Source: Alienimonas chondri (GTDB lineage Bacteria > Planctomycetota > Planctomycetia > Planctomycetales > Planctomycetaceae). From it: a stretch of 64,000 nt of DNA. Position numbers and translations under genes: made by a program. This document shows positions 1,465-62,059 of the stretch, piece after piece; the stretch's first letter is position 1; each line of letters begins with the position of its first letter. The notes beneath the pieces are model-generated. The model was not told where the DNA came from and made no database searches. It saw only the letters and a program-made list of their open reading frames with translations. The DNA is taken from the NCBI RefSeq assembly GCF_013036045.1, contig NZ_WTPX01000004.1, positions 1 through 64,000 on the forward strand. The letters are read 5' to 3'.

Positions 1465-3558
1465 GTGCCGAAGTTCGAGGTCGTCAGCGAGTTCGCCCCC
1501 GGCGGCGATCAACCCAAAGCGATCGACGCCCTGACCGCGGGTTTGAACGCGGGAGAGCGCGATCAGGTGTTGCTGGGCGTCACCGGCTCCGGCAAGACGT
1601 TCACGATCGCGAACGTCATCGAACGGGTGCAGAAGCCCACGCTCGTTCTCTCCCACAACAAAACGCTCGCGGCCCAGTTGTACGGCGAACTGCGGGAGTT
1701 CTTCCCGAACAACGCCGTCAGCTATTTCGTCTCCTATTACGACTATTACCAACCCGAGGCGTACATCCCCGCACGGGATATCTATATTGAAAAAGACTCC
1801 AGCATCAACGAGGAGATCGATCGTTTGCGGCTGCAGGCGACGAGCCAGTTGGTCAGCCGCCGGGACGTGATCGTCGTGTCATCGGTCAGTTGTATTTACG
1901 GGCTGGGCAGCCCGAAAGAGTACGTGAACATGATGGTCCCGATTCAGGTCGGCGAAGAACTGGACCGGGACGAGGCGCTGCTCAAGTTCATCGACATCCA
2001 ATACGACCGCAACGACTACGACCTGGCCCGCGGACGATTCCGCGTTCGCGGAGACACGATCGAATTGTGGCCCGCCTACGAGGAGTTCGCCTACCGCATC
2101 GAACTGTGGGGCGACGAAGTGGAGGCGCTGTCCGTCATCAACCCCACCAGCGGGGAGACGATCAAGAAGGTCGACGAAGCCTATATTTATCCAGCCAAGC
2201 ACTTCGTCATGCCCGCCGACAAGATGGGCAAAGCGATCGCGGAGATCGAGGGCGAATTGAACGCTCAGTTGGAGAAGTTCCATAAGGAAGGCAAGCTGCT
2301 GGAAGCCCAGCGGCTCTCCGCCCGCACGCGGTACGACACCGAATTAATGAAAGAAGCCGGGTTCTGCCCGGGCATCGAGAACTACAGCCGCGCCCTCGCC
2401 GGCCGCAAGCCGGGTCAACCGCCGGATACGCTGCTGGACTTCTTCCCGAAGGATTTCCTGACCGTCATTGACGAATCGCACGTCAGCGTGCCGCAGGTGC
2501 GGGCAATGTATAACGGCGACCACGCCCGTAAGAAAACGCTGGTGGAGCACGGCTTCCGCCTGCCGATGGCGATGGACAACCGCCCCTTGAAGTTCGAGGA
2601 GTGGGAAGAACGCCGCGGCCAAACGATCTTCGTTTCCGCCACTCCGAACGACTGGGAGTTGGAACTGACGGAGGGCGAAATCGTCGAGCAGGTCATTCGC
2701 CCGACCGGCCTGATCGACCCGCAAATCCACGTCGTCCCGGCCCGCGGACAAGTTCCGCACCTGCGGGAACAGATCGCCAAGCGCATCGAACGCAGCGAGC
2801 GAGTGCTCGTGACCTGTTTGACGAAGCGCCTCAGCGAAGACCTCACCGCCTATCTTCAAGAGGACGGCGTCAAATGCATGTGGCTGCATAGCGAAATGGA
2901 CGCCATCGAACGCGTCCAGGTGCTCCGTGAACTGCGCGAGGGCAGCCATGACGTCGTCATCGGCGTGAACCTGCTGCGAGAAGGCCTCGACCTGCCGGAA
3001 GTCTCGCTGGTGGCGATCCTTGACGCCGATAAAGAGGGTTTCCTGCGCAGCGAAACGAGCCTCATTCAGACGATCGGCCGCAGCGCCCGCAACGTGAACG
3101 CGGAGGTCTTTCTCTACGCCGATCGCGTGACCGACAGCATGGCCCGCGCGATGGAGGAAACGAACCGACGCCGGGCGATTCAAATCGCTCACAATAAAAA
3201 GCACAATATCACCCCGCGATCGACCACGCGGAAAATCAGCGGCGGGATCGAGGCGGAGGTGCAGGCCAACCAGAGCGTTCGCAAGGCGGTCACGTCCGAG
3301 CCGGGGACCGTCACGATCACGAAGGAATTGATCGCGGAACTCGAGAAAGAGATGCTCGCCGCCGCGGAGAATCTGGAATTCGAAAAGGCCGCGGGCCTGC
3401 GGGACAAGGTTGCCAAACTGAGCGACCGCATCGGCGAACCGCTAAACGAGTCGGACCTCAGGCCGGCCTCCGATCGCGGCAAGCGCGGGCGACGGGGCCG
3501 GGGCGGAAGCAAGAAGGGCGAACGCGTGCCGAAGCCTGCGGGTTCGTCCGGTCAGTAA
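1465..3558 (+). CDS. uvrB: UvrABC excinuclease subunit B
   Basis: Damage-verification helicase of nucleotide excision repair; it receives DNA from UvrA and recruits UvrC. The 697 residues are full length. Seen: Walker A GVTGSGKT (about 38-45), the beta-hairpin YYDYYQPEAYIP (about 91-102), DESH, helicase motifs through IQTIGRSARN, and a C-terminal UVR coiled coil (AELEKEMLAAAENLEFEKAA). A basic Gly/Arg/Lys tail follows. The start is a GTG giving MPKFEVVSEF, which aligns with the family N-terminus. The only UvrA-like protein in the window is the degenerate one at 12488-14674, so a normal UvrA must lie elsewhere. Confidence 0.97.
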   Translation: MPKFEVVSEFAPGGDQPKAIDALTAGLNAGERDQVLLGVTGSGKTFTIANVIERVQKPTLVLSHNKTLAAQLYGELREFFPNNAVSYFVSYYDYYQPEAYIPARDIYIEKDSSINEEIDRLRLQATSQLVSRRDVIVVSSVSCIYGLGSPKEYVNMMVPIQVGEELDRDEALLKFIDIQYDRNDYDLARGRFRVRGDTIELWPAYEEFAYRIELWGDEVEALSVINPTSGETIKKVDEAYIYPAKHFVMPADKMGKAIAEIEGELNAQLEKFHKEGKLLEAQRLSARTRYDTELMKEAGFCPGIENYSRALAGRKPGQPPDTLLDFFPKDFLTVIDESHVSVPQVRAMYNGDHARKKTLVEHGFRLPMAMDNRPLKFEEWEERRGQTIFVSATPNDWELELTEGEIVEQVIRPTGLIDPQIHVVPARGQVPHLREQIAKRIERSERVLVTCLTKRLSEDLTAYLQEDGVKCMWLHSEMDAIERVQVLRELREGSHDVVIGVNLLREGLDLPEVSLVAILDADKEGFLRSETSLIQTIGRSARNVNAEVFLYADRVTDSMARAMEETNRRRAIQIAHNKKHNITPRSTTRKISGGIEAEVQANQSVRKAVTSEPGTVTITKELIAELEKEMLAAAENLEFEKAAGLRDKVAKLSDRIGEPLNESDLRPASDRGKRGRRGRGGSKKGERVPKPAGSSGQ

Positions 3559-7682: not shown

Positions 7683-9050
7683 TCAAGAGAACGCCGCGAT
7701 CCCCGCGGCGATCACCCGTTCCAGCCCGTCCGCCCGGCAGCCTTTCGCCAGCGCCACGTCTCCCGGGCGGATCTCCTCGCTCAAAACAGCGGCCGCGGCG
7801 CTCGCATCGCGAACCCGAATACCGACCGCTTCGGACAACCCGGCCGCGTCCGCCGTGCGGGCGCCGGTGGCGCCGACGAACAGCACGCGGTCCAGCCCCG
7901 CCGTCGCGATGCGACGGCCGAGTTTCGCATACAGCCGGTCGGCCTCCTCGCCCAACTCCCGCATCCCGCCGCACACCAACCAACGTCGACCAGGCGGGAC
8001 GACCGGCCAACTGGCGAGCAGATCGACCGCGGCGAAGAAACCTTCCGGCGGGGCGTTGTAGGTGTCGTCGATGAAGGTCGCTCCGCCGACGACCGTGACG
8101 GCCCCGCGCCCCGGCGGCGGGCGAAACCGGGTCAGACCGTTCCGTATCGCCTCGTTCGACAGCCCCAATGCTTCTCCGACCGCCACCGCGCACGCACCGA
8201 GCGACACGAAATGCGGCGCGAACCCCTGCAGCGAGAACGTTGTCCCGTTCCGACCGAACCGCAGGAACCCCGGTGGGGCCGGCAGCGGTTCGACCCGTAC
8301 GTCGCAGTCGGCCGTCGTGCCGGCGACGACGATCGGTCGCTCTGCGGTTTGGGCGAGCGCCCGAGCCCCCGGGTCGTCCCTGTTCACGACGAGCACGCCG
8401 TCCGGGGCGACGCCGGCGAACAGCTCCGCCTTCGCGGCTCGCAGCGCCGCCGGTCCGCCGAACGTGCCGACGTGGGCCGTGCCGACGCCCGTCAGCACGC
8501 CGGCCGTCGGCTTCGCCCATTCGCAGAGCGTCGCGATCTCGCCGGGGGAGGAAGCGCCGACTTCGATGACGGCAGACCGATGCTCCGGGGCGATCTCGCA
8601 GAGCGTCAGCGGGACGCCGAGCGCGTTGTTGAAGTTCGCCCGACTGCGAACCCCGGGCCCGAGGCCGGACAACGCGGCGTGCAGCAGATCCCGACAGGTC
8701 GTTTTCCCATGCGAGCCGCCGACGGCCACGACGGGTCCGGCGCACTGGTCGCGGTTCCACGCCCCGAGTTGGGCGAGCGCCGCGGCGGGGTCGGGCACGA
8801 CGATCGCCGGTCCAGCGTCGGTCTCCTGTGCGACGACCGCCGCGACGGCGCCGCGGTGGAAGGCGTCCGCGACATAATCGTGCCCGTCGGTGCGGGCGCC
8901 GGGCAGGGCGAAGAAGAGGTCTCCGGGACGCACCGCCCGGGAATCGATCGCCGCGCCCCCGACTTGTGTCCCCCGCGTAACGCCGAGGCTCCGCGGAGCC
9001 TCGGCGTTACGGAACACACTTGGAAGTCGATCGAGCGTAAGGGGGAACAC
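7683..9050 (-). CDS. murF: MurF, UDP-MurNAc-tripeptide:D-Ala-D-Ala ligase
   Basis: Adds D-Ala-D-Ala to the UDP-MurNAc-tripeptide in the cytoplasm. Seen: DSRAVRPGDLFFALPG near the N-terminus, P-loop VGGSHGKTT, RANFNNALGVPLTL, EVGASSPGEI, and the C-terminal FIDDTYNAPP and VALAKGCRADGLE. I chose GTG at 9050, 2 bases after the murE stop with a G-rich upstream site, giving 455 residues; the frame can extend to a TTG at 9095. The first domain contains 12 residues (RNAEAPRSLGVT) encoded exactly by a dispersed 36-base palindrome (8976-9011), an in-frame insertion. Confidence 0.93.
   Translation of the reverse strand: MFPLTLDRLPSVFRNAEAPRSLGVTRGTQVGGAAIDSRAVRPGDLFFALPGARTDGHDYVADAFHRGAVAAVVAQETDAGPAIVVPDPAAALAQLGAWNRDQCAGPVVAVGGSHGKTTCRDLLHAALSGLGPGVRSRANFNNALGVPLTLCEIAPEHRSAVIEVGASSPGEIATLCEWAKPTAGVLTGVGTAHVGTFGGPAALRAAKAELFAGVAPDGVLVVNRDDPGARALAQTAERPIVVAGTTADCDVRVEPLPAPPGFLRFGRNGTTFSLQGFAPHFVSLGACAVAVGEALGLSNEAIRNGLTRFRPPPGRGAVTVVGGATFIDDTYNAPPEGFFAAVDLLASWPVVPPGRRWLVCGGMRELGEEADRLYAKLGRRIATAGLDRVLFVGATGARTADAAGLSEAVGIRVRDASAAAAVLSEEIRPGDVALAKGCRADGLERVIAAGIAAFS
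8976..9011. repeat. Palindrome family A, copy 1, in frame inside murF
   Basis: A perfect 36-base palindrome with 18-base arms (cgtaacgccgaggctccg and complement) and no loop. The length is exactly 12 codons, so the murF frame is kept. The same core occurs at 11674-11715, 29987-30018 and 62019-62050. Confidence 0.9.
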
Positions 9051-11673: not shown

Positions 11674-11715
11674 CTCCGTAACGCCGAGGCTCCGCGGAGC
11701 CTCGGCGTTACGGAG
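11674..11715. repeat. Palindrome family A, copy 2, directly after hemH
   Basis: A perfect 42-base palindrome without loop; 21-base arms, core taacgccgaggctccg. It begins at the base after the hemH TGA (11671-11673), a position that would suit a transcript-ending or 3'-protecting hairpin, but no T-run follows. Confidence 0.9.
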
Positions 11716-11813
11716 GCGACGAAAACTTGAGAGGAACCGGGGTTTCGTCCTTGGGGGGCGTGGGGTACACCCCGTGCACAGTCCCCGCACCCCCGGCAAG
11801 GAGGCCGGCCGCG

Positions 11814-12356
11814 ATGCCGTCAGAACTTTCCATTCATCGCCCCGACGCCGTCCAGATCCGGTGGTTGATCCGCCGTGACATGCCGGCTGTCCTCGAAATC
11901 GAAGCGGCCAGCTTCGAGTTCGCCTGGACCGAGGAAGACTTCATCTGCTGCCTCCGGCAGCGCAACTGCATCGGCATGGTGGCCGAAGTCGCAGGCGAGG
12001 TCGTCGGCTACATGATCTACGAGCTGCAGAAAAGCCGCTTGCGGATCCTGAACTTCGCCGTCGCCCCCGAGAACCGCCGCGGCGGCATCGGCCGGCAGAT
12101 GGTTCGCCGTCTGGTCGACAAGCTGTCGCAGCAGCGCCGCACGGAGATCGTGCTGGAGGTTCGCGAGACGAACCTTCCCGCGCAGCTGTTCTTCAAGGGC
12201 GAGGGCTTTCGGGCCTTCCGCGTCGTCCATGACCGCTACGACGACACGACCGAAGACGCCTACGCGATGCACTTCGCGCTGTCGAACACCCCCGCCGCCT
12301 TCAAACCGGCCAACCGCATCAGCGCCTTCCTGATGCCCGAAGCCGACGCGGCCTGA
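11814..12356 (+). CDS. rimI: GNAT acetyltransferase, RimI-like
   Basis: Likely N-alpha-acetyltransferase of ribosomal protein bS18 or a related substrate. Seen: RRDMPAVLEIEAASFEFAWTEEDF, the ILNFAVAPENRRGGIGRQMV acetyl-CoA loop (Q/RxxGxG/A type) and the LEVRETNLPAQLFFKGEGF block typical of RimI. The ATG at 11814 is preceded by a strong AAGGAGG (11798-11804, 9 bases away) and gives 180 residues; the frame is open upstream to 11727 but that part is not conserved-looking. A 24-residue tail follows the domain. Substrate not provable from sequence. Confidence 0.85.
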   Translation: MPSELSIHRPDAVQIRWLIRRDMPAVLEIEAASFEFAWTEEDFICCLRQRNCIGMVAEVAGEVVGYMIYELQKSRLRILNFAVAPENRRGGIGRQMVRRLVDKLSQQRRTEIVLEVRETNLPAQLFFKGEGFRAFRVVHDRYDDTTEDAYAMHFALSNTPAAFKPANRISAFLMPEADAA

Positions 12357-12360
12357 GCCT

Positions 12361-12467
12361 GTTCGTAGTGGCGCCCTTCAGGGCGCCCCGAGCGGCACAG
12401 CCGCGAACCCGTGGCGTGATCGCTCGCTCCGCTCGCGGGGGCGCCCTGAAGGGACGCCACTACGAAC
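12361..12467. repeat. Long inverted repeat after rimI
   Basis: Left arm 12361-12390 (gttcgtagtggcgcccttca...) and right arm 12436-12467 (...tgaagggacgccactacgaac) are complementary over about 30 bases with one small bulge. The spacer is about 45 bases and contains a gcgagc/gctcgc word pair. It starts 5 bases after the rimI stop. Confidence 0.8.
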
Positions 12468-12487
12468 GGGGACGCTAACATGCCGCC

Positions 12488-14674
12488 ATGCCCGCTCCCG
12501 ACGCCCCGCCGATTCGTCTGCGGGGCGTCCGAGTGCGCGACCTACAGATCGACGCCCTCGATCTGCCGCTCGGCGCCCTGACAGTCGTCGCCGGCGTGGC
12601 GGGGTCCGGGAAGAGCACGCTGCTGCGGGACGTGTTGCATGCGGAGGGACAGCGGCGGTACGTCGCGGCGCTCTCCGCCTCGGCTCGCCGCCTGCTGGAA
12701 CGGCGCGAACGGCCGGATGCCGACGCGATCGAGCATGTCCCGCCGGCGATTCTGATCGACCTCGATCAGCCGCCTGCAAAAGACGAGACGCTCGCCGATC
12801 GGGCGGGTCTCGGCGATCTGCTGCGCACCGCCTTCGCCGCGCTCGCGCGGCCGCACGATCCGGCCACCGGCGCCGTGCTGCCCGTCACGCGGGCCGACGT
12901 CGCCGCCCACGGATTGACCGCAGCGTTCCCCGACGCCCGCACGCTGATCGGCTTCGCCGCCGACGCCGCGCTCTCCCCGGAGGCGTACCGCGGCGCCGGT
13001 TTCAACCGGTTCGTCGCCGGCGCCGAGACCGGCCGATTAGAAGACGCGGAGGCGCTCCCCGCCGGCGCCGCCGTCCTCGTGGACCGCGTGAAGCTCTCGC
13101 CGTCCTCCCTCGAGCGGACGGAGGAAAGCCTCTCGACGGCCCTGCGATTTGGCGGCGGGCGGGCGGTCGTCTGGACGGAGTGGCCCGAGGGCGACCGGGA
13201 GATCGACGGCCGGACCTGGGTCGAACAGATCGTCCGCGATCGCGCCGTTCTGGACGACGGGGCCGTGCTACCGGGTCCCACGCCGCGATTGTTCTCCGCG
13301 TCGTTCGGGCCAAAGGAGATCGGTCGGCGGGCGTGGCGATTCGAGGGCGACACCTGGGATCAGTGGCTTGCACAGACCGGGAAGAACCTGCGTAAAACTC
13401 TGCCGACGGACGGTCCGCCGGCGGTCTCGCAGCTTGCGGTCGCGCTCGATCGATTGGACGGCTGGGTGCTCGCGGGGACGCCGCTGAACACGCCGGCCTC
13501 GTCTCTCAACGGCGCCGAGAATCGCCGGGCGCTGCTCGCCGCCGCCGCGGACCCGGGGATGCGGGGACTCCTGATGCTGTTCGACGCGCCGCTCGCCGGG
13601 CTGCCGGCCGAGGATGCGGAGCGGTTCCAGTCGCTCTGCCGATCGCTGACGGACGGGGGGAACACGGTCGTCGCGGCGGGGTCGGAGCCGGCGCTTTGCC
13701 GGGCGGCGGATCGGCTGGTGGAACTCGGCCCCGGGGCCGGGGCCGACGGCGGTCGGGTTCTCTTTGCCGGCCCGCCTGATGAGATCGCGAACGCGGAGGG
13801 TTCGATCCTCGCCCCGTTCCTGCACTCCGAATCCCCCTCCGCCGCCTCCGCTTCCCACGACGCGACGGAGGCGCTGCCGGATGCGAACCGCACGCCGTTC
13901 GTGCCGCGGGGGCTGGCGGTTCTGACCGGGGAGAATGCGGAGGAGCGACTGCGCACGCTGGCCGCCGAGGCGACCGCGGTGGAGCGGTTCGGCCGCTTCG
14001 GAGACGTGTTGTTCGGTCCTCGAAAGCCGCTGACGAAGAGTCCGCGGAGCACCGTGGCCACGTTTCTGGGGTTCTTCGGGGAGATCCGAGACCTGTTCGC
14101 CTCGACGCCGGAGGCGAAGTTGCGGGGCTTCACCGCCGGGCATTTCTCGCTGGCGGGATCGTCGCCGGGGCGGTGTCCGTTGTGCGAGGGGACAGGAACC
14201 GTCACCACGCCGATGCAGTTCCTGCCGGACTTGGTCGCGACCTGTCCGGAGTGCGGCGGGGACCGGTTCAAGCCGGAGATCCTGGCGATCCGCGTGCGGG
14301 GGCTGTCGATCGCGGACACGTTGAACCTCACCGCCGAGGACGCCGTGCCGTTCTTCCGCGGACGGCCCAAGCCGCGGGCGCGGGCGGCCGCGGTCCGGGA
14401 CGTGGGGTTAGGCCACATTACGATCGGCCGGGCGGCGAACACGCTGAGCCACGGCGAAGGCCAGCGCCTGCGGTTGGCGAAGACGCTGGCCGCCCGCACC
14501 GCGTCCGCGACGTTGATTCTGCTCGAAGCGCCCGCCGCCGGACTGCACCCCGCCGACGCGGAGCGACTCTGCGAGGTGTTCGCACGCCTGACGGAGAACG
14601 GCCACGCCGTGGTCGCCGCCGACTCCCACCCTCGCCTGCTCGCCGCGGCGGACGCGGTGATCGACTGCGGATGA
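12488..14674 (+). CDS. Degenerate UvrA-family ATPase
   Basis: A 728-residue UvrA-like protein, about 200 residues short of UvrA. The first nucleotide-binding half keeps Walker A (GVAGSGKST, 36-44), but its signature is SLNGAENRR and its Walker B is LFDAP (366-367), losing the catalytic Glu. The second half lacks a P-loop where one is expected (about 478-488, GENAEERLR), keeps the UvrA block RSTVATFLGFFGEIRDLFASTPEA, a zinc motif (C563, C566, C586, C589) and an altered signature LSHGEGQRLRLAKTL, and has LLEAPAAGLHP in place of DEPTTGLH. The N-terminal zinc module is missing. It is probably not an active UvrA; a DNA-binding or regulatory role is inference. Confidence 0.85.
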   Translation: MPAPDAPPIRLRGVRVRDLQIDALDLPLGALTVVAGVAGSGKSTLLRDVLHAEGQRRYVAALSASARRLLERRERPDADAIEHVPPAILIDLDQPPAKDETLADRAGLGDLLRTAFAALARPHDPATGAVLPVTRADVAAHGLTAAFPDARTLIGFAADAALSPEAYRGAGFNRFVAGAETGRLEDAEALPAGAAVLVDRVKLSPSSLERTEESLSTALRFGGGRAVVWTEWPEGDREIDGRTWVEQIVRDRAVLDDGAVLPGPTPRLFSASFGPKEIGRRAWRFEGDTWDQWLAQTGKNLRKTLPTDGPPAVSQLAVALDRLDGWVLAGTPLNTPASSLNGAENRRALLAAAADPGMRGLLMLFDAPLAGLPAEDAERFQSLCRSLTDGGNTVVAAGSEPALCRAADRLVELGPGAGADGGRVLFAGPPDEIANAEGSILAPFLHSESPSAASASHDATEALPDANRTPFVPRGLAVLTGENAEERLRTLAAEATAVERFGRFGDVLFGPRKPLTKSPRSTVATFLGFFGEIRDLFASTPEAKLRGFTAGHFSLAGSSPGRCPLCEGTGTVTTPMQFLPDLVATCPECGGDRFKPEILAIRVRGLSIADTLNLTAEDAVPFFRGRPKPRARAAAVRDVGLGHITIGRAANTLSHGEGQRLRLAKTLAARTASATLILLEAPAAGLHPADAERLCEVFARLTENGHAVVAADSHPRLLAAADAVIDCG

Positions 14675-14852: not shown

Positions 14853-17800
14853 GTGTCCGACTCGTCTGCCCAGAACCAGGCCGCCCCGGAGAGCGGCGCC
14901 GTCACGCCCCCGTTCGCGCATCTGCACTGTCATACGCACTACAGTTTGCTGGACGGGATGACGAAGATCCCGGAACTGGTGCAGGCGACGAAGGCGTCCG
15001 GCATGAACGCCGCGGCGATCACGGACCACGGCAACCTGTACGGGTCGATGGAGTTCTATCACGCCTGTCGGGCGGAGGATATCAACCCGATCCTCGGCAT
15101 CGAGGCCTATATGGCCCCACGCAGCCGCACGGAGCGCGGCGGGCGGATGAAAGAGTCGAACTTTCACCTGACGCTGCTGGCTCAGAATGCGACCGGCTTT
15201 CGCAACCTGGTGCGGATGAGCAGCATCGCCTACACGGAGGGGTTTTATTACAAGCCCCGTATGGATAAAGAACTGCTGGAAGCGCACAGCGAAGGGCTGA
15301 TCGTCCTCAGCGGGTGCGTCTCCGGCGAACTGTCGCGGCATCTATTGAACGAGCAGCAGGAGGAGGCCGAGAAGCTGTGCCAATGGTACACGGAAGTCTT
15401 CGGCGACCGCTTCTATATGGAGATCCAGGACAGCGGCATCCAGATTCAGAAAGACGCGGGCGAGGCGACCGTCGATCTGGCGAACCGCATGGGTCTGCCG
15501 TTGGTGGCCACCAACGACAGCCACTACCTTTGCGGCGAGGACGCCGTCGCGCACGACATTTTATTGTGCGTCAATACCCGCAGCGAGCGGAACGATACGA
15601 AGCGGATGCGACTGGGTTCGCAGGACTTCTTCGTCAAGTCGCCGGAAGAGATGTATCAGGTCTTCCCGAGCCAGCAGGAGGCCGTCAGGCGCAGCCAGGA
15701 GATCGCCGATCGCTGCGATATTCAGCTTGAGGAGAACCCGAAGTATTACCCGGTCTTCAAACCGCCGCGGGAGTTGACGGATACGGAGTATCTGCGGGAG
15801 ATCTGCGAAAAGGCGATGGTCGAGCGCTACGGCGACGAGGCCACCCAGGCGCACCGCGACCGGCTCGACCTGGAGCTGGGGGTCATCGAATACATGGGGT
15901 ATTCGAGCTACTTCCTGATCGTGTGGGACTTCGTGGAATTCGCGAAGCGGGAAGGCATTCCCTGCACCGCCCGCGGCTCCGCGGCCGGAGCGATTGTCGC
16001 CTTTCTATTGGGCATTTCCGACGTCTGCCCGCTGAAGTACGACCTGCTGTTCGAGCGGTTCCTCGATAAGAGCCGCAAAGAGCCGCCGGATATCGATATC
16101 GACTTCTGCCGCGACCGGCGGCAGGCGGTGATCGATTATACCAAGGAGAAATACGGCGAAGACGCCGTCGCCCAGATCGGCACGTTCGGCACGCTCAAAG
16201 CCAAGGCCGTGGTGCGAGACGTCGGCCGCGCATTGGGCGTCCCGCTGTCCCGGGTCAACGAGATCGCTAAAGCGGTCCCGGACACGCTCGGGATTAAACT
16301 GGCGGAGGCCGTCAAGCAAAGCCCGGAGCTGTCGGACGCCTACAACAACGACCCGCAGATCACGGAGCTGATCGATATCGCTTACCGGCTGGAAGGCCTG
16401 GCCCGCAGCGCCGGGACGCACGCAGCCGGCGTGGTGGTGGCGGACCAGCCGCTCAAGGACCTGCTGCCGTTGCAGGTCATCACCGGCAAAGAGGACGTCA
16501 TCACCCAGTGGGACGGTCCCACCGTCGAGGCGGCGGGGCTGCTTAAAATGGACTTCTTGGGGTTGCGGAACCTCACGATCCTCGACAAGTCCATCAAGAA
16601 CGTGCTGGCGAGCAACCCGGACTTCGACCTGTCCGTGCTGCAGCAGGTGGACGAGCCGGACGCTAAAACGTACGCCCTGCTGCAACGGGGCGAGACGAAG
16701 GGCGTGTTTCAGCTGGAGTCCGGCGGGATGCGGGACCTCCTGACGAAGATGCGGCCCGACAAATTCGCGGACATCATCGCCACCTCCGCCCTCTATCGTC
16801 CCGGCCCGCTGGAGGGCGGGATGGTGATGAACTACGTGGACATTAAAAACGGCCGCAAGGAGGTCGCGAAGATTCACCCCCTGGTCGACCCCGTGCTGGC
16901 CGACACGTACGGGATCATGGTGTATCAGGAACAGGTCATGCGGATCCTGAACCGGGTCGGCGGCATCGAGTTGGCCAGCGCCTACAAGTGCATTAAGGCG
17001 ATCTCGAAAAAGAAGCTGGCGATTATCGCCCAGTTCCGGCAGCAGTATATCGACGGCGCCAAAGAGCGCGGCGTGGACGAGTCGGTCGCGGTCAACCTGT
17101 TCGAGCTAATCGAGAAGTTCGCCGGGTATGGCTTTAACAAGTCGCACAGTACCGCCTACGGGCTGATCGCCTATCAAACGGCCTACCTGAAGGCGCATTA
17201 TCCGGTCGAGTTCATGGCCGCCCTGCTCTCCTGCGGGATGGAGAGCAGCGACCGGATCACGGAACACGTCGAGGACGCCCGTCGCCAGGACATCGAGGTG
17301 CAGCCGCCGGACGTGAACCGCAGCAACGTGGAATTCTCGGTGGCGCCCCTTGACGACGGGAAACCGGGGATCACCTTCGGCCTCGGCGCGGTGAAGGGGC
17401 TGGGGCTGTCCGCGATGCACGCCCTGGTGGCGGAACGCGAGGCGAACGGCCCCTATAAAGATATCTTCGACATCACCGAGCGGGTCGATCCCGGACACCT
17501 GAACCGCTCCGCATTGGAGATCCTGATTAAATGCGGGGCGCTGGACCTGCTCGGACCGACGCGGGCCCAGCACTCCGCGGTGGTCGATCGGGCGGTGCAG
17601 GCCGCGGCGAATAAGGCCCGCGACGCCGCCGCGGGACAGGCCAGCCTGTTCGGCGGGGAGGAAGAGGCCGACGACGCCCCCGAGGTCGCCGCGAGCTTCC
17701 CCGACGTGCCCGACTGGAACCGGGCGACGAAGCTCGCCCATGAGAAAGAGGTCTTCGGCTTCTATCTGACCAGTCATCCCCTCACCGAAGCGGGCGACAT

Positions 17801-18464
17801 TATCACCAAGTTCGCCACCGCCACGACGCGGGAGCTGGGCGAGGCGGAGGACGGCGTGGAGGTGTGCGTCGGCGGGATGGTCGGCGCCATCAAAAAGGCC
17901 CGCACGAAAAAGCCCTCCCGCAACAATAATTCGGACTACGTCATGTTCGACTTCGAGGACGCCGAGGGCTGCGTGCGGTGCATCATGTGGCCGGAGGACT
18001 ACGCCCGTCAGGGGCAGCTCGTGGAAGCCGAGGCGGTCCTCTATGTGAAGGGCAAAGTGGATCGCCGCGGCCGGGAGCCGAACCTGATCGTCAATCGCCT
18101 GATGACGCCGGACGACGCCATCAAGGAACACACCCGCCAGCTCGCGGTGAAGTTTCAGAAGGGCCTGCACGCGGACGCCGAACTGGCCCGGGTGCGGGAG
18201 ATCCTCGGCCGATATCCCGGCGAGACGGACGTGGTCGTGCTGGTGGACACCGGCTCCGCGGAAGCCCTCACGGGCGGGGCGGGGGAGGCGAACGGCGAAA
18301 CCGAAGCGGTCCGCACACGGTATCGTATCTCGACGCCCGGCCACCTGCGGGTCTCCTGCGGCCCGGGCCTGCGGCGGGAGTTGATCGAGGTGATGGGCGA
18401 ACAGCACTTGCACTTCTGGAGTCCGCCGGTGCGACGTAGAACTCCTTCGCCCAGCATGAACTGA
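14853..18464 (+). CDS. dnaE: DNA polymerase III alpha subunit
   Basis: Replicative DNA polymerase, 1203 residues, GTG start. N-terminal PHP domain with HLHCHTHYSLLDG, ITDHGNLYG, LSGCVSGE and NDSHY, so the metal-binding residues look intact. The C-family palm carries PDIDIDF (about 410-416), AAGAIVAFLLGISDVCP upstream of it, and GYGFNKSHSTAYG downstream. A helix-hairpin-helix/OB-fold C-terminal part follows. Its organisation matches DnaE1, not the short DnaE2/ImuC type. A lipoprotein gene starts 11 bases downstream. Confidence 0.97.
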   Translation: MSDSSAQNQAAPESGAVTPPFAHLHCHTHYSLLDGMTKIPELVQATKASGMNAAAITDHGNLYGSMEFYHACRAEDINPILGIEAYMAPRSRTERGGRMKESNFHLTLLAQNATGFRNLVRMSSIAYTEGFYYKPRMDKELLEAHSEGLIVLSGCVSGELSRHLLNEQQEEAEKLCQWYTEVFGDRFYMEIQDSGIQIQKDAGEATVDLANRMGLPLVATNDSHYLCGEDAVAHDILLCVNTRSERNDTKRMRLGSQDFFVKSPEEMYQVFPSQQEAVRRSQEIADRCDIQLEENPKYYPVFKPPRELTDTEYLREICEKAMVERYGDEATQAHRDRLDLELGVIEYMGYSSYFLIVWDFVEFAKREGIPCTARGSAAGAIVAFLLGISDVCPLKYDLLFERFLDKSRKEPPDIDIDFCRDRRQAVIDYTKEKYGEDAVAQIGTFGTLKAKAVVRDVGRALGVPLSRVNEIAKAVPDTLGIKLAEAVKQSPELSDAYNNDPQITELIDIAYRLEGLARSAGTHAAGVVVADQPLKDLLPLQVITGKEDVITQWDGPTVEAAGLLKMDFLGLRNLTILDKSIKNVLASNPDFDLSVLQQVDEPDAKTYALLQRGETKGVFQLESGGMRDLLTKMRPDKFADIIATSALYRPGPLEGGMVMNYVDIKNGRKEVAKIHPLVDPVLADTYGIMVYQEQVMRILNRVGGIELASAYKCIKAISKKKLAIIAQFRQQYIDGAKERGVDESVAVNLFELIEKFAGYGFNKSHSTAYGLIAYQTAYLKAHYPVEFMAALLSCGMESSDRITEHVEDARRQDIEVQPPDVNRSNVEFSVAPLDDGKPGITFGLGAVKGLGLSAMHALVAEREANGPYKDIFDITERVDPGHLNRSALEILIKCGALDLLGPTRAQHSAVVDRAVQAAANKARDAAAGQASLFGGEEEADDAPEVAASFPDVPDWNRATKLAHEKEVFGFYLTSHPLTEAGDIITKFATATTRELGEAEDGVEVCVGGMVGAIKKARTKKPSRNNNSDYVMFDFEDAEGCVRCIMWPEDYARQGQLVEAEAVLYVKGKVDRRGREPNLIVNRLMTPDDAIKEHTRQLAVKFQKGLHADAELARVREILGRYPGETDVVVLVDTGSAEALTGGAGEANGETEAVRTRYRISTPGHLRVSCGPGLRRELIEVMGEQHLHFWSPPVRRRTPSPSMN

Positions 18465-29866: not shown

Positions 29867-29986
29867 GGGAGAGCTTTCGTCTGAGGTTCAGGGGGAGGGA
29901 AGGGAACCCGGCTCAAAGGGAGAGCGCGGGTTGGGGTCCGGGGCGAACGATTCGCCCCGACCGATCGGCCGGTGGACTTCAAGCAA

Positions 29987-30018
29987 TAACGCTGAGGCCC
30001 GGCCGGGCCTCAGCGTTA
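29987..30018. repeat. Palindrome family A, copy 3, rpoA-rplQ gap
   Basis: Perfect 32-base palindrome, arms taacgctgaggcccgg (29987-30002) and complement. Compared with the other copies, several positions differ but are changed symmetrically in both arms. It is 17 bases past the rpoA stop, inside the operon. Confidence 0.9.
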
Positions 30019-30035
30019 CGAAACGAATCAGTGAA

Positions 30036-62002: not shown

Positions 62003-62018
62003 ACCATCATAACGCCCA

Positions 62019-62050
62019 TAACGCCGAGGCCCCGCGGGGCCTCGGCGTTA
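62019..62050. repeat. Palindrome family A, copy 4
   Basis: Perfect 32-base palindrome, arms taacgccgaggccccg and complement, between the DNA glycosylase stop and the DUF1570 gene. Differs from copies 1 and 2 by one symmetric pair (t-a to c-g). Confidence 0.9.
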
Positions 62051-62059
62051 CGGGCAGGT

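Follow-up and report, generated by a model that had tools for sequence, protein, structure and literature searches.

A reduced UvrA paralogue of Alienimonas chondri belongs to a planctomycete clade with repeated loss of the distal ATP site

Described UvrA proteins include class I (as in Escherichia coli and Geobacillus), class II (Ecm16, Deinococcus radiodurans UvrA2 and DrrC) and class III, the tandem UvrA of planctomycetes and chlamydiae (PRK00635). Each UvrA carries two composite ATP-binding cassette (ABC) sites, a proximal site formed by ATP-binding domain (ABD) I with signature II and a distal site formed by ABD II with signature I (PMC6486640). The E512A substitution preserves proximal ATP binding and blocks hydrolysis there, and proximal ATP binding favours contact of UvrA with DNA and UvrB (PMC6486640). 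The roles of the two sites are still disputed, on the evidence of engineered mutants. Here we describe uvrX, our name for the gene of a 728-residue UvrA-like protein in the marine planctomycete Alienimonas chondri, found in a stretch of 64,000 nucleotides (the window: contig NZ_WTPX01000004.1, positions 1 to 64,000). It is an extreme, reduced member of a planctomycete UvrA paralogue clade marked by repeated, one-sided loss of an ATP site. A published proteome study describes the planctomycete UvrA as a tandem fusion (PMC8567305), and uvrX is therefore not the main UvrA. The A. chondri genome (5,295,625 bp) also encodes a tandem class III UvrA of 2355 residues, a motif-intact UvrA paralogue of 1012 residues (C1), and normal uvrB and mfd genes.

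The motifs of uvrX were read from alignments of 45 to 67 UvrA sequences (Table 1), and only Walker A1 and the LSxGE of signature II survive out of the motifs of two ATP sites. An initial annotation, made from the sequence of the window, had claimed that both catalytic glutamates (FDAP and LEAP) and one P-loop (GENAEERLR in the second Walker A) were lost; the alignments bear out both statements, as does the A. californiensis orthologue, which is 75% identical, reads LDAP and LEAP, lacks a second P-loop and shares the same losses. A sequencing error or frameshift in A. chondri is thereby ruled out. An alternative alignment that would give back the second P-loop was considered and rejected, the sole GxxxxGK of the protein lying at residue 36. 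The losses also extend beyond those first listed, to the H-loop His and Q-loop Gln of both halves, to signature I, which reads SLNGAENRR, and to the position of E. coli G502, which is Asp. All 16 key motif residues are present in each of 22 UvrAs used for comparison (8 of class I or III and 14 from clade A, another planctomycete paralogue clade), so the losses in uvrX are far from chance.

The domain content is equally reduced. The annotation had the N-terminal zinc module missing; the loss is real, but it comprises two modules, zinc modules 1 and 2 (C253/256/277/280 and C406/409, E. coli numbering), together with the insertion domain. The DNA-contact zinc motif, correctly noted as kept, is zinc module 3. 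In the UvrB/Mfd-binding-type domain, R174, R200 and R210 correspond to R176, R206 and R216 of the E. coli protein, and Ser replaces E222; three of the four UvrB-interface residues are thus kept, in a domain whose binding role is predicted. R176 and R206 belong to the UvrB interface according to structural work on UvrA-UvrB. R216 and E222 have been mutated as the UvrB surface of E. coli UvrA (PMC3025350). Structure prediction (AlphaFold2, AF2, with a 41-sequence alignment) returned a UvrA fold with a mean predicted local distance difference test score (pLDDT) of 86.6 and a predicted template modelling (pTM) score of 0.79. The best matches of the model were UvrA 2r6f (E 2.3e-53; template modelling (TM) score 0.79 by query length) and the UvrA-UvrB complex 3uwx, and the fold, including that of the UvrB-binding domain, is predicted with high confidence.

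Comparison with the known classes places uvrX outside all of them. It resembles class I (2r6f) in fold, Walker A1, the UvrB-binding-type domain with R176/R206/R216, signature II and zinc module 3, but lacks the second P-loop, both catalytic Glu, the H-loops, the Q-loops, signature I, zinc modules 1 and 2 and the insertion domain; against the class I model TIGR00630 of NCBIfam it scores 369.4 bits, below the cut-off of 729.8 bits. Like the class II proteins (Ecm16, 7sh1; UvrA2, 2vf7; DrrC), it is a shortened paralogue beside a canonical UvrA and has no zinc module 1. Ecm16, however, retains both ATP sites, zinc module 2 and the insertion domain and has no UvrB-binding domain, the reverse of uvrX. 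Class III shares its organisms and its genome with uvrX, yet has all motifs intact, whereas uvrX is a single copy in a separate clade. Domain content and trees together rule out membership of class II or class III. uvrX also resembles ABC proteins with one degenerate ATP site, being likewise asymmetric, with one composite site kept and the other lost; in those proteins, however, the kept site hydrolyses ATP, whereas that of uvrX has no catalytic Glu and its asymmetry lies within one UvrA chain.

Phylogenetic analysis against the UvrA classes placed uvrX in a planctomycete-specific clade, clade B, with 100/100 support (bootstrap 100) in a careful tree from which other long branches were left out; class I, class III and clade A all fell outside it. 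Larger quick trees agreed on clade B (100 by the Shimodaira-Hasegawa-like approximate likelihood-ratio test, SH-aLRT) and put C1 in clade A. Planctomycetes thus hold at least two further UvrA paralogue clades beyond tandem class III. Very long branches mark all degenerate clade-B lineages, among them uvrX, whose stem measures 3.15 changes per column compared with 0.43 for the median end branch. Clade-A copies (L065 at G000:C1:27000-36000; L260) keep all ATPase motifs intact, with a long branch in Alienimonas. A search for relatives with uvrX alone found no close relative, and one with a signature II alignment returned only other clade-B members and ordinary UvrAs. A phage or plasmid origin was considered and rejected, the closest matches being ordinary UvrAs at no more than about 38% identity, with no relative in viral contigs. 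In the literature that we searched, which is not the entire literature, no earlier description of this paralogue clade was found.

Full-length relatives share the chromosomal setting of uvrX. We searched for rimI in 120 genomes of the family and read the surroundings at 60 loci outside Alienimonas; at 11 of them, as in the two Alienimonas species, rimI has a clade-B UvrA as its neighbour, usually with dnaE next. In G003, the clade-B UvrA lies upstream of dnaE and rimI is on a separate contig. The hemH-rimI-X-dnaE order is common to uvrX and to the full-length copies of G021, G073 and G103, which have 977-983 residues and intact Walker, signature and H-loop motifs, unlike the shorter uvrX, which is ATPase-dead by sequence. 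The G009 copy (967 residues) departs from this state in those motifs only by NEP in Walker B2. The second P-loop has been lost outright in Alienimonas, in three species of genus g4 (781-810 residues) and in G024 (794 residues), and is two residues shorter in G003 (768 residues). Because of long-branch warnings, we distrusted a sequence tree that would join Alienimonas, g4, G003 and G024 and took their relations from a dnaE tree, as a proxy for species, and from shared synteny. The dnaE tree groups Alienimonas with G021, whose gene is intact, and with G013 at 100, and places g4, G024 and G003 elsewhere, so the second P-loop has undergone no fewer than three losses and one further alteration.

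Across 44 clade-B sequences, erosion falls heavily on the distal site. Non-canonical residues number 57 at eight distal-site positions versus 12 at eight proximal-site positions, and parsimony assigns 37 changes to the distal site and 4 to the proximal site, counts that are probably low because long branches sharing a defect tend to be joined. Gly and Lys of Walker A1 and Gly and Glu of signature II vary in none of the 44, and the 14 clade-A and 8 class I or III sequences show no such site changes. Walker A2 and signature I, distant in sequence and parts of one site, therefore erode together, and most of the other site is retained. In Alienimonas the erosion is carried further, the proximal catalytic Glu being lost too. 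Many otherwise near-intact clade-B UvrAs (L056, L059, L063, L081, L128, L054, L071 and L074) have lost the Walker B2 Asp, reading NEP, TEP or EEP for DEP, which suggests that the distal site is weakened clade-wide. In Stratiformator vulcanicus, a clade-B copy (L268, G013:C1:3219500-3227000) evolves fast and lies some 8 kb from rimI; its Walker B2 reads LDDP and its H-loop 1 is changed.

Rates of nonsynonymous (dN) and synonymous (dS) substitution between A. chondri and A. californiensis were obtained as point estimates by the Nei-Gojobori method with Jukes-Cantor correction, and a dS of about 0.6 between the species makes them measurable. Whole-gene dN/dS is 0.29 for uvrX, compared with 0.10 for dnaE, 0.20 for C1 and 0.09 for the tandem class III UvrA. 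Within uvrX, signature II with zinc module 3 gives about 0.10 (dN 0.059, dS 0.59) and the Walker A1 part about 0.16 (dN 0.100, dS 0.61), while the dead Walker A2 region gives about 0.9 (dN 0.371, dS 0.42). The remnant of the distal site evolves almost neutrally. The overall ratio and that of signature II with zinc module 3 make a pseudogene unlikely. Motif state, the second species, purifying selection and the confidently predicted fold all support the original view of uvrX as a specialised, probably non-hydrolysing UvrA descendant.

From comparison with studied UvrAs, we infer tentatively that uvrX may be a non-cycling DNA-binding adaptor, holding proximal ATP unhydrolysed and presenting a UvrB/Mfd-docking domain. 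Signature domain II and zinc module 3 would contact DNA, and ATP would bind the surviving composite proximal site (Walker A1 with signature II) but escape hydrolysis because the Walker B1 Glu and the H-loop His are gone. In ordinary UvrA the fast ATPase cycle is driven by the distal site, which is dead in uvrX. With neither a distal cycle nor proximal hydrolysis, uvrX would tend to stay in a state like that of lesion-engaged UvrA with ATP in its proximal site, the UvrB/Mfd-binding domain presented. By analogy, the loss of the proximal Glu in Alienimonas can be regarded as a natural counterpart of E512A. Beside the tandem UvrA, such an accessory might hold or deliver UvrB, or meet Mfd at DNA, without searching for lesions; alternatively, it might tune the amount of UvrB usable by the main UvrA. 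Global nucleotide excision repair (NER) in E. coli is crippled more than Mfd-dependent repair when UvrA loses the insertion domain or carries K37A (proximal ATPase) or G502D (PMC3025350). Since the same three functions are altered in uvrX, its most likely role would be that of an accessory in contact with DNA that presents UvrB or Mfd. The adaptor is also favoured by the kept equivalents of R176, R206 and R216 and by the position of uvrB next to the uvrX orthologue in G021 and G118. The earlier proposal of a decoy or sensor is partly supported, in that it fits the kept DNA-contact and UvrB-docking surfaces.

Several observations weigh against such an adaptor. Normal UvrA proximal sites bind nucleotide weakly (PMC6486640), and ATP binding by uvrX may be weak because Q-loop 1 and H-loop 1 are lost. 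Ecm16 needs for DNA binding the insertion domain that uvrX lacks (PMC10192343), and E. coli UvrA with K646A in the distal site repairs poorly (PMC3025350). The E222 position, part of the mutated UvrB surface, is Ser or Ala in Alienimonas, and identity between the two species is just 67% in the UvrB-binding region. The kept arginines are near-universal wherever the UvrB-binding domain is kept, and their retention may be structural. Finally, uvrB adjoins the uvrX orthologue in two genera only (directly convergent in G021 and G118), and a functional link by proximity is not general across the genomes.

Heterodimeric ABC proteins have degenerate subunits, and ABC exporters combine one degenerate with one kept site, as uvrX does. 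One could thus imagine uvrX pairing with a canonical UvrA of its own cell, by way of the nucleotide-binding domain (NBD) and signature II surfaces that it retains, and poisoning or tuning half of the dimer. UvrA is dimeric in known structures, the cell contains two motif-intact UvrAs (the class III tandem and C1) and the fold of uvrX is kept; however, about 3 substitutions per site separate uvrX from other UvrAs, which argues against a shared interface, and a tandem-fused main UvrA may not accept a third partner. We consider this arrangement unlikely. Slow decay under relaxed selection after redundancy, leaving a gene without present function on its way to loss, is less probable still. It would account for the very long branches of the degenerate lineages, for the neutral-like regions of uvrX and for the presence of the gene beside rimI at so few of the sampled loci outside Alienimonas, but the reading frame is intact in both species at a dS near 0.6, signature II with zinc module 3 has a dN/dS of about 0.1, Walker A1 Gly-Lys is never lost among the 44 sequences, and erosion is concentrated at the distal site.

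ABC proteins without the catalytic Glu can keep residual activity, and slow proximal turnover with a substitute base might leave uvrX competent for repair, perhaps only of the Mfd-dependent kind. E. coli UvrA does keep its template-strand repair preference when the insertion domain is deleted or when K37A or G502D is introduced (PMC3025350); nonetheless, the scenario is improbable for uvrX, whose proximal site has lost Glu, H-loop His and Q-loop Gln, whose distal site is absent, and whose host already has NER served by a tandem UvrA (PMC8567305). A toxin-resistance role, also raised in the initial annotation, in which uvrX would strip intercalators from DNA or shield it from them as class II-type factors (DrrC, Ecm16, UvrA2) do, finds some support in the shortened form of class II proteins, which act without UvrBC, and in a full-length match at 28% identity to a UvrA-like protein of S. 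globisporus C-1027, but has a similarly slim chance, since the characterised resistance UvrAs (class II, Ecm16) have no UvrB-binding domain and depend on ATPase activity as well as on the insertion domain (PMC10192343), the opposite of the uvrX pattern, and the neighbours hemH, rimI and dnaE form no biosynthetic cluster.

At one gene and one locus, nature has repeatedly removed the distal site and kept the proximal one, with an end point that presumably lacks proximal hydrolysis as well. A broader and more doubtful proposal is that clade B represents an unnamed UvrA class in which the distal ATPase is dismantled repeatedly and the parts for proximal ATP binding, DNA binding and UvrB docking are kept, the Alienimonas end point being a naturally ATP-locked UvrA which, with no ATPase-driven search for lesions, delivers UvrB or couples Mfd. 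If uvrX does bind UvrB or Mfd on DNA, it would show which UvrA capabilities persist without ATP turnover, and it would offer structural work a natural mimic of the lesion-engaged state.

Table 1. Features of uvrX and of its surroundings (positions in the window; aa, amino acids)
Feature	Positions	Strand	Basis or remark
uvrX, UvrA-like protein, 728 aa	12488..14674	+	Intact open reading frame (ORF), ATG at 12488, stop codon ending at 14674; AF2 mean pLDDT 86.6; best PDB match UvrA 2r6f, E 2e-53
Walker A1 GVAGSGKST, aa 36-44, intact	12593..12619	+	Nucleotide half of proximal ATP site; Gly-Lys invariant in 44/44 clade members
UvrB/Mfd-binding-type domain, aa 124-232	12857..13183	+	Between Walker A1 and signature I; pLDDT ~95
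Signature domain I remnant	13184..13528	+	Zinc modules 1-2 and insertion domain deleted; signature SLNGAENRR; dN/dS ~0.5
D355, at E. coli UvrA G502 position	13550..13552	+	Alignment; G502D impairs damage discrimination
Walker B1 MLFDAPLAGL, aa 363-372	13574..13603	+	Proximal site; Asp kept, catalytic Glu to Ala
H-loop 1 AAGSEP, His to Ser	13673..13690	+	Alignment
Walker A2 GENAEERLR, dead, aa 481-489	13928..13954	+	Distal site; surrounding aa 451-505 near-neutral
Signature domain II and zinc module 3	14003..14422	+	C563, C566, C586, C589; DNA-contact positions R534, K544, R546, H552; dN/dS ~0.1
ABC signature II TLSHGEGQR (LSxGE kept)	14441..14467	+	Signature half of proximal site
Walker B2 ILLEAPAAGL	14516..14545	+	Distal site; Asp to Glu, Glu to Ala
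H-loop 2 AADSHP, His to Ser	14615..14632	+	Alignment
uvrB	1465..3558	+	~9 kb upstream of uvrX; 1001 bits to TIGR00631
rimI-like N-acetyltransferase	11811..12356	+	Upstream syntenic neighbour of uvrX, conserved
dnaE (DNA polymerase III alpha)	14853..18464	+	Downstream syntenic neighbour of uvrX, conserved

At the A. chondri locus, hemH lies further upstream of the rimI-like gene, and a promoter scan of the uvrX region found nothing. Between rimI and uvrX is a near-perfect palindrome of 112 nt (12360-12471), whose RNA fold has an energy of -96 kcal/mol (z -11). Similar DNA recurs at about eight further places in the A. chondri genome, and the palindrome is an element of the repetitive extragenic palindromic (REP) or miniature inverted-repeat transposable element (MITE) type. 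The rimI-uvrX gap of A. californiensis holds a different inverted repeat. A second family of palindromic repeats in the window consists of perfect or near-perfect 38-nt palindromes (CGTAACGCCGAGGCTCCGCGGAGCCTCGGCGTTACGG) at 8976-9013, 11677-11714, 29985-30022 and 62017-62054, two copies of which are identical.
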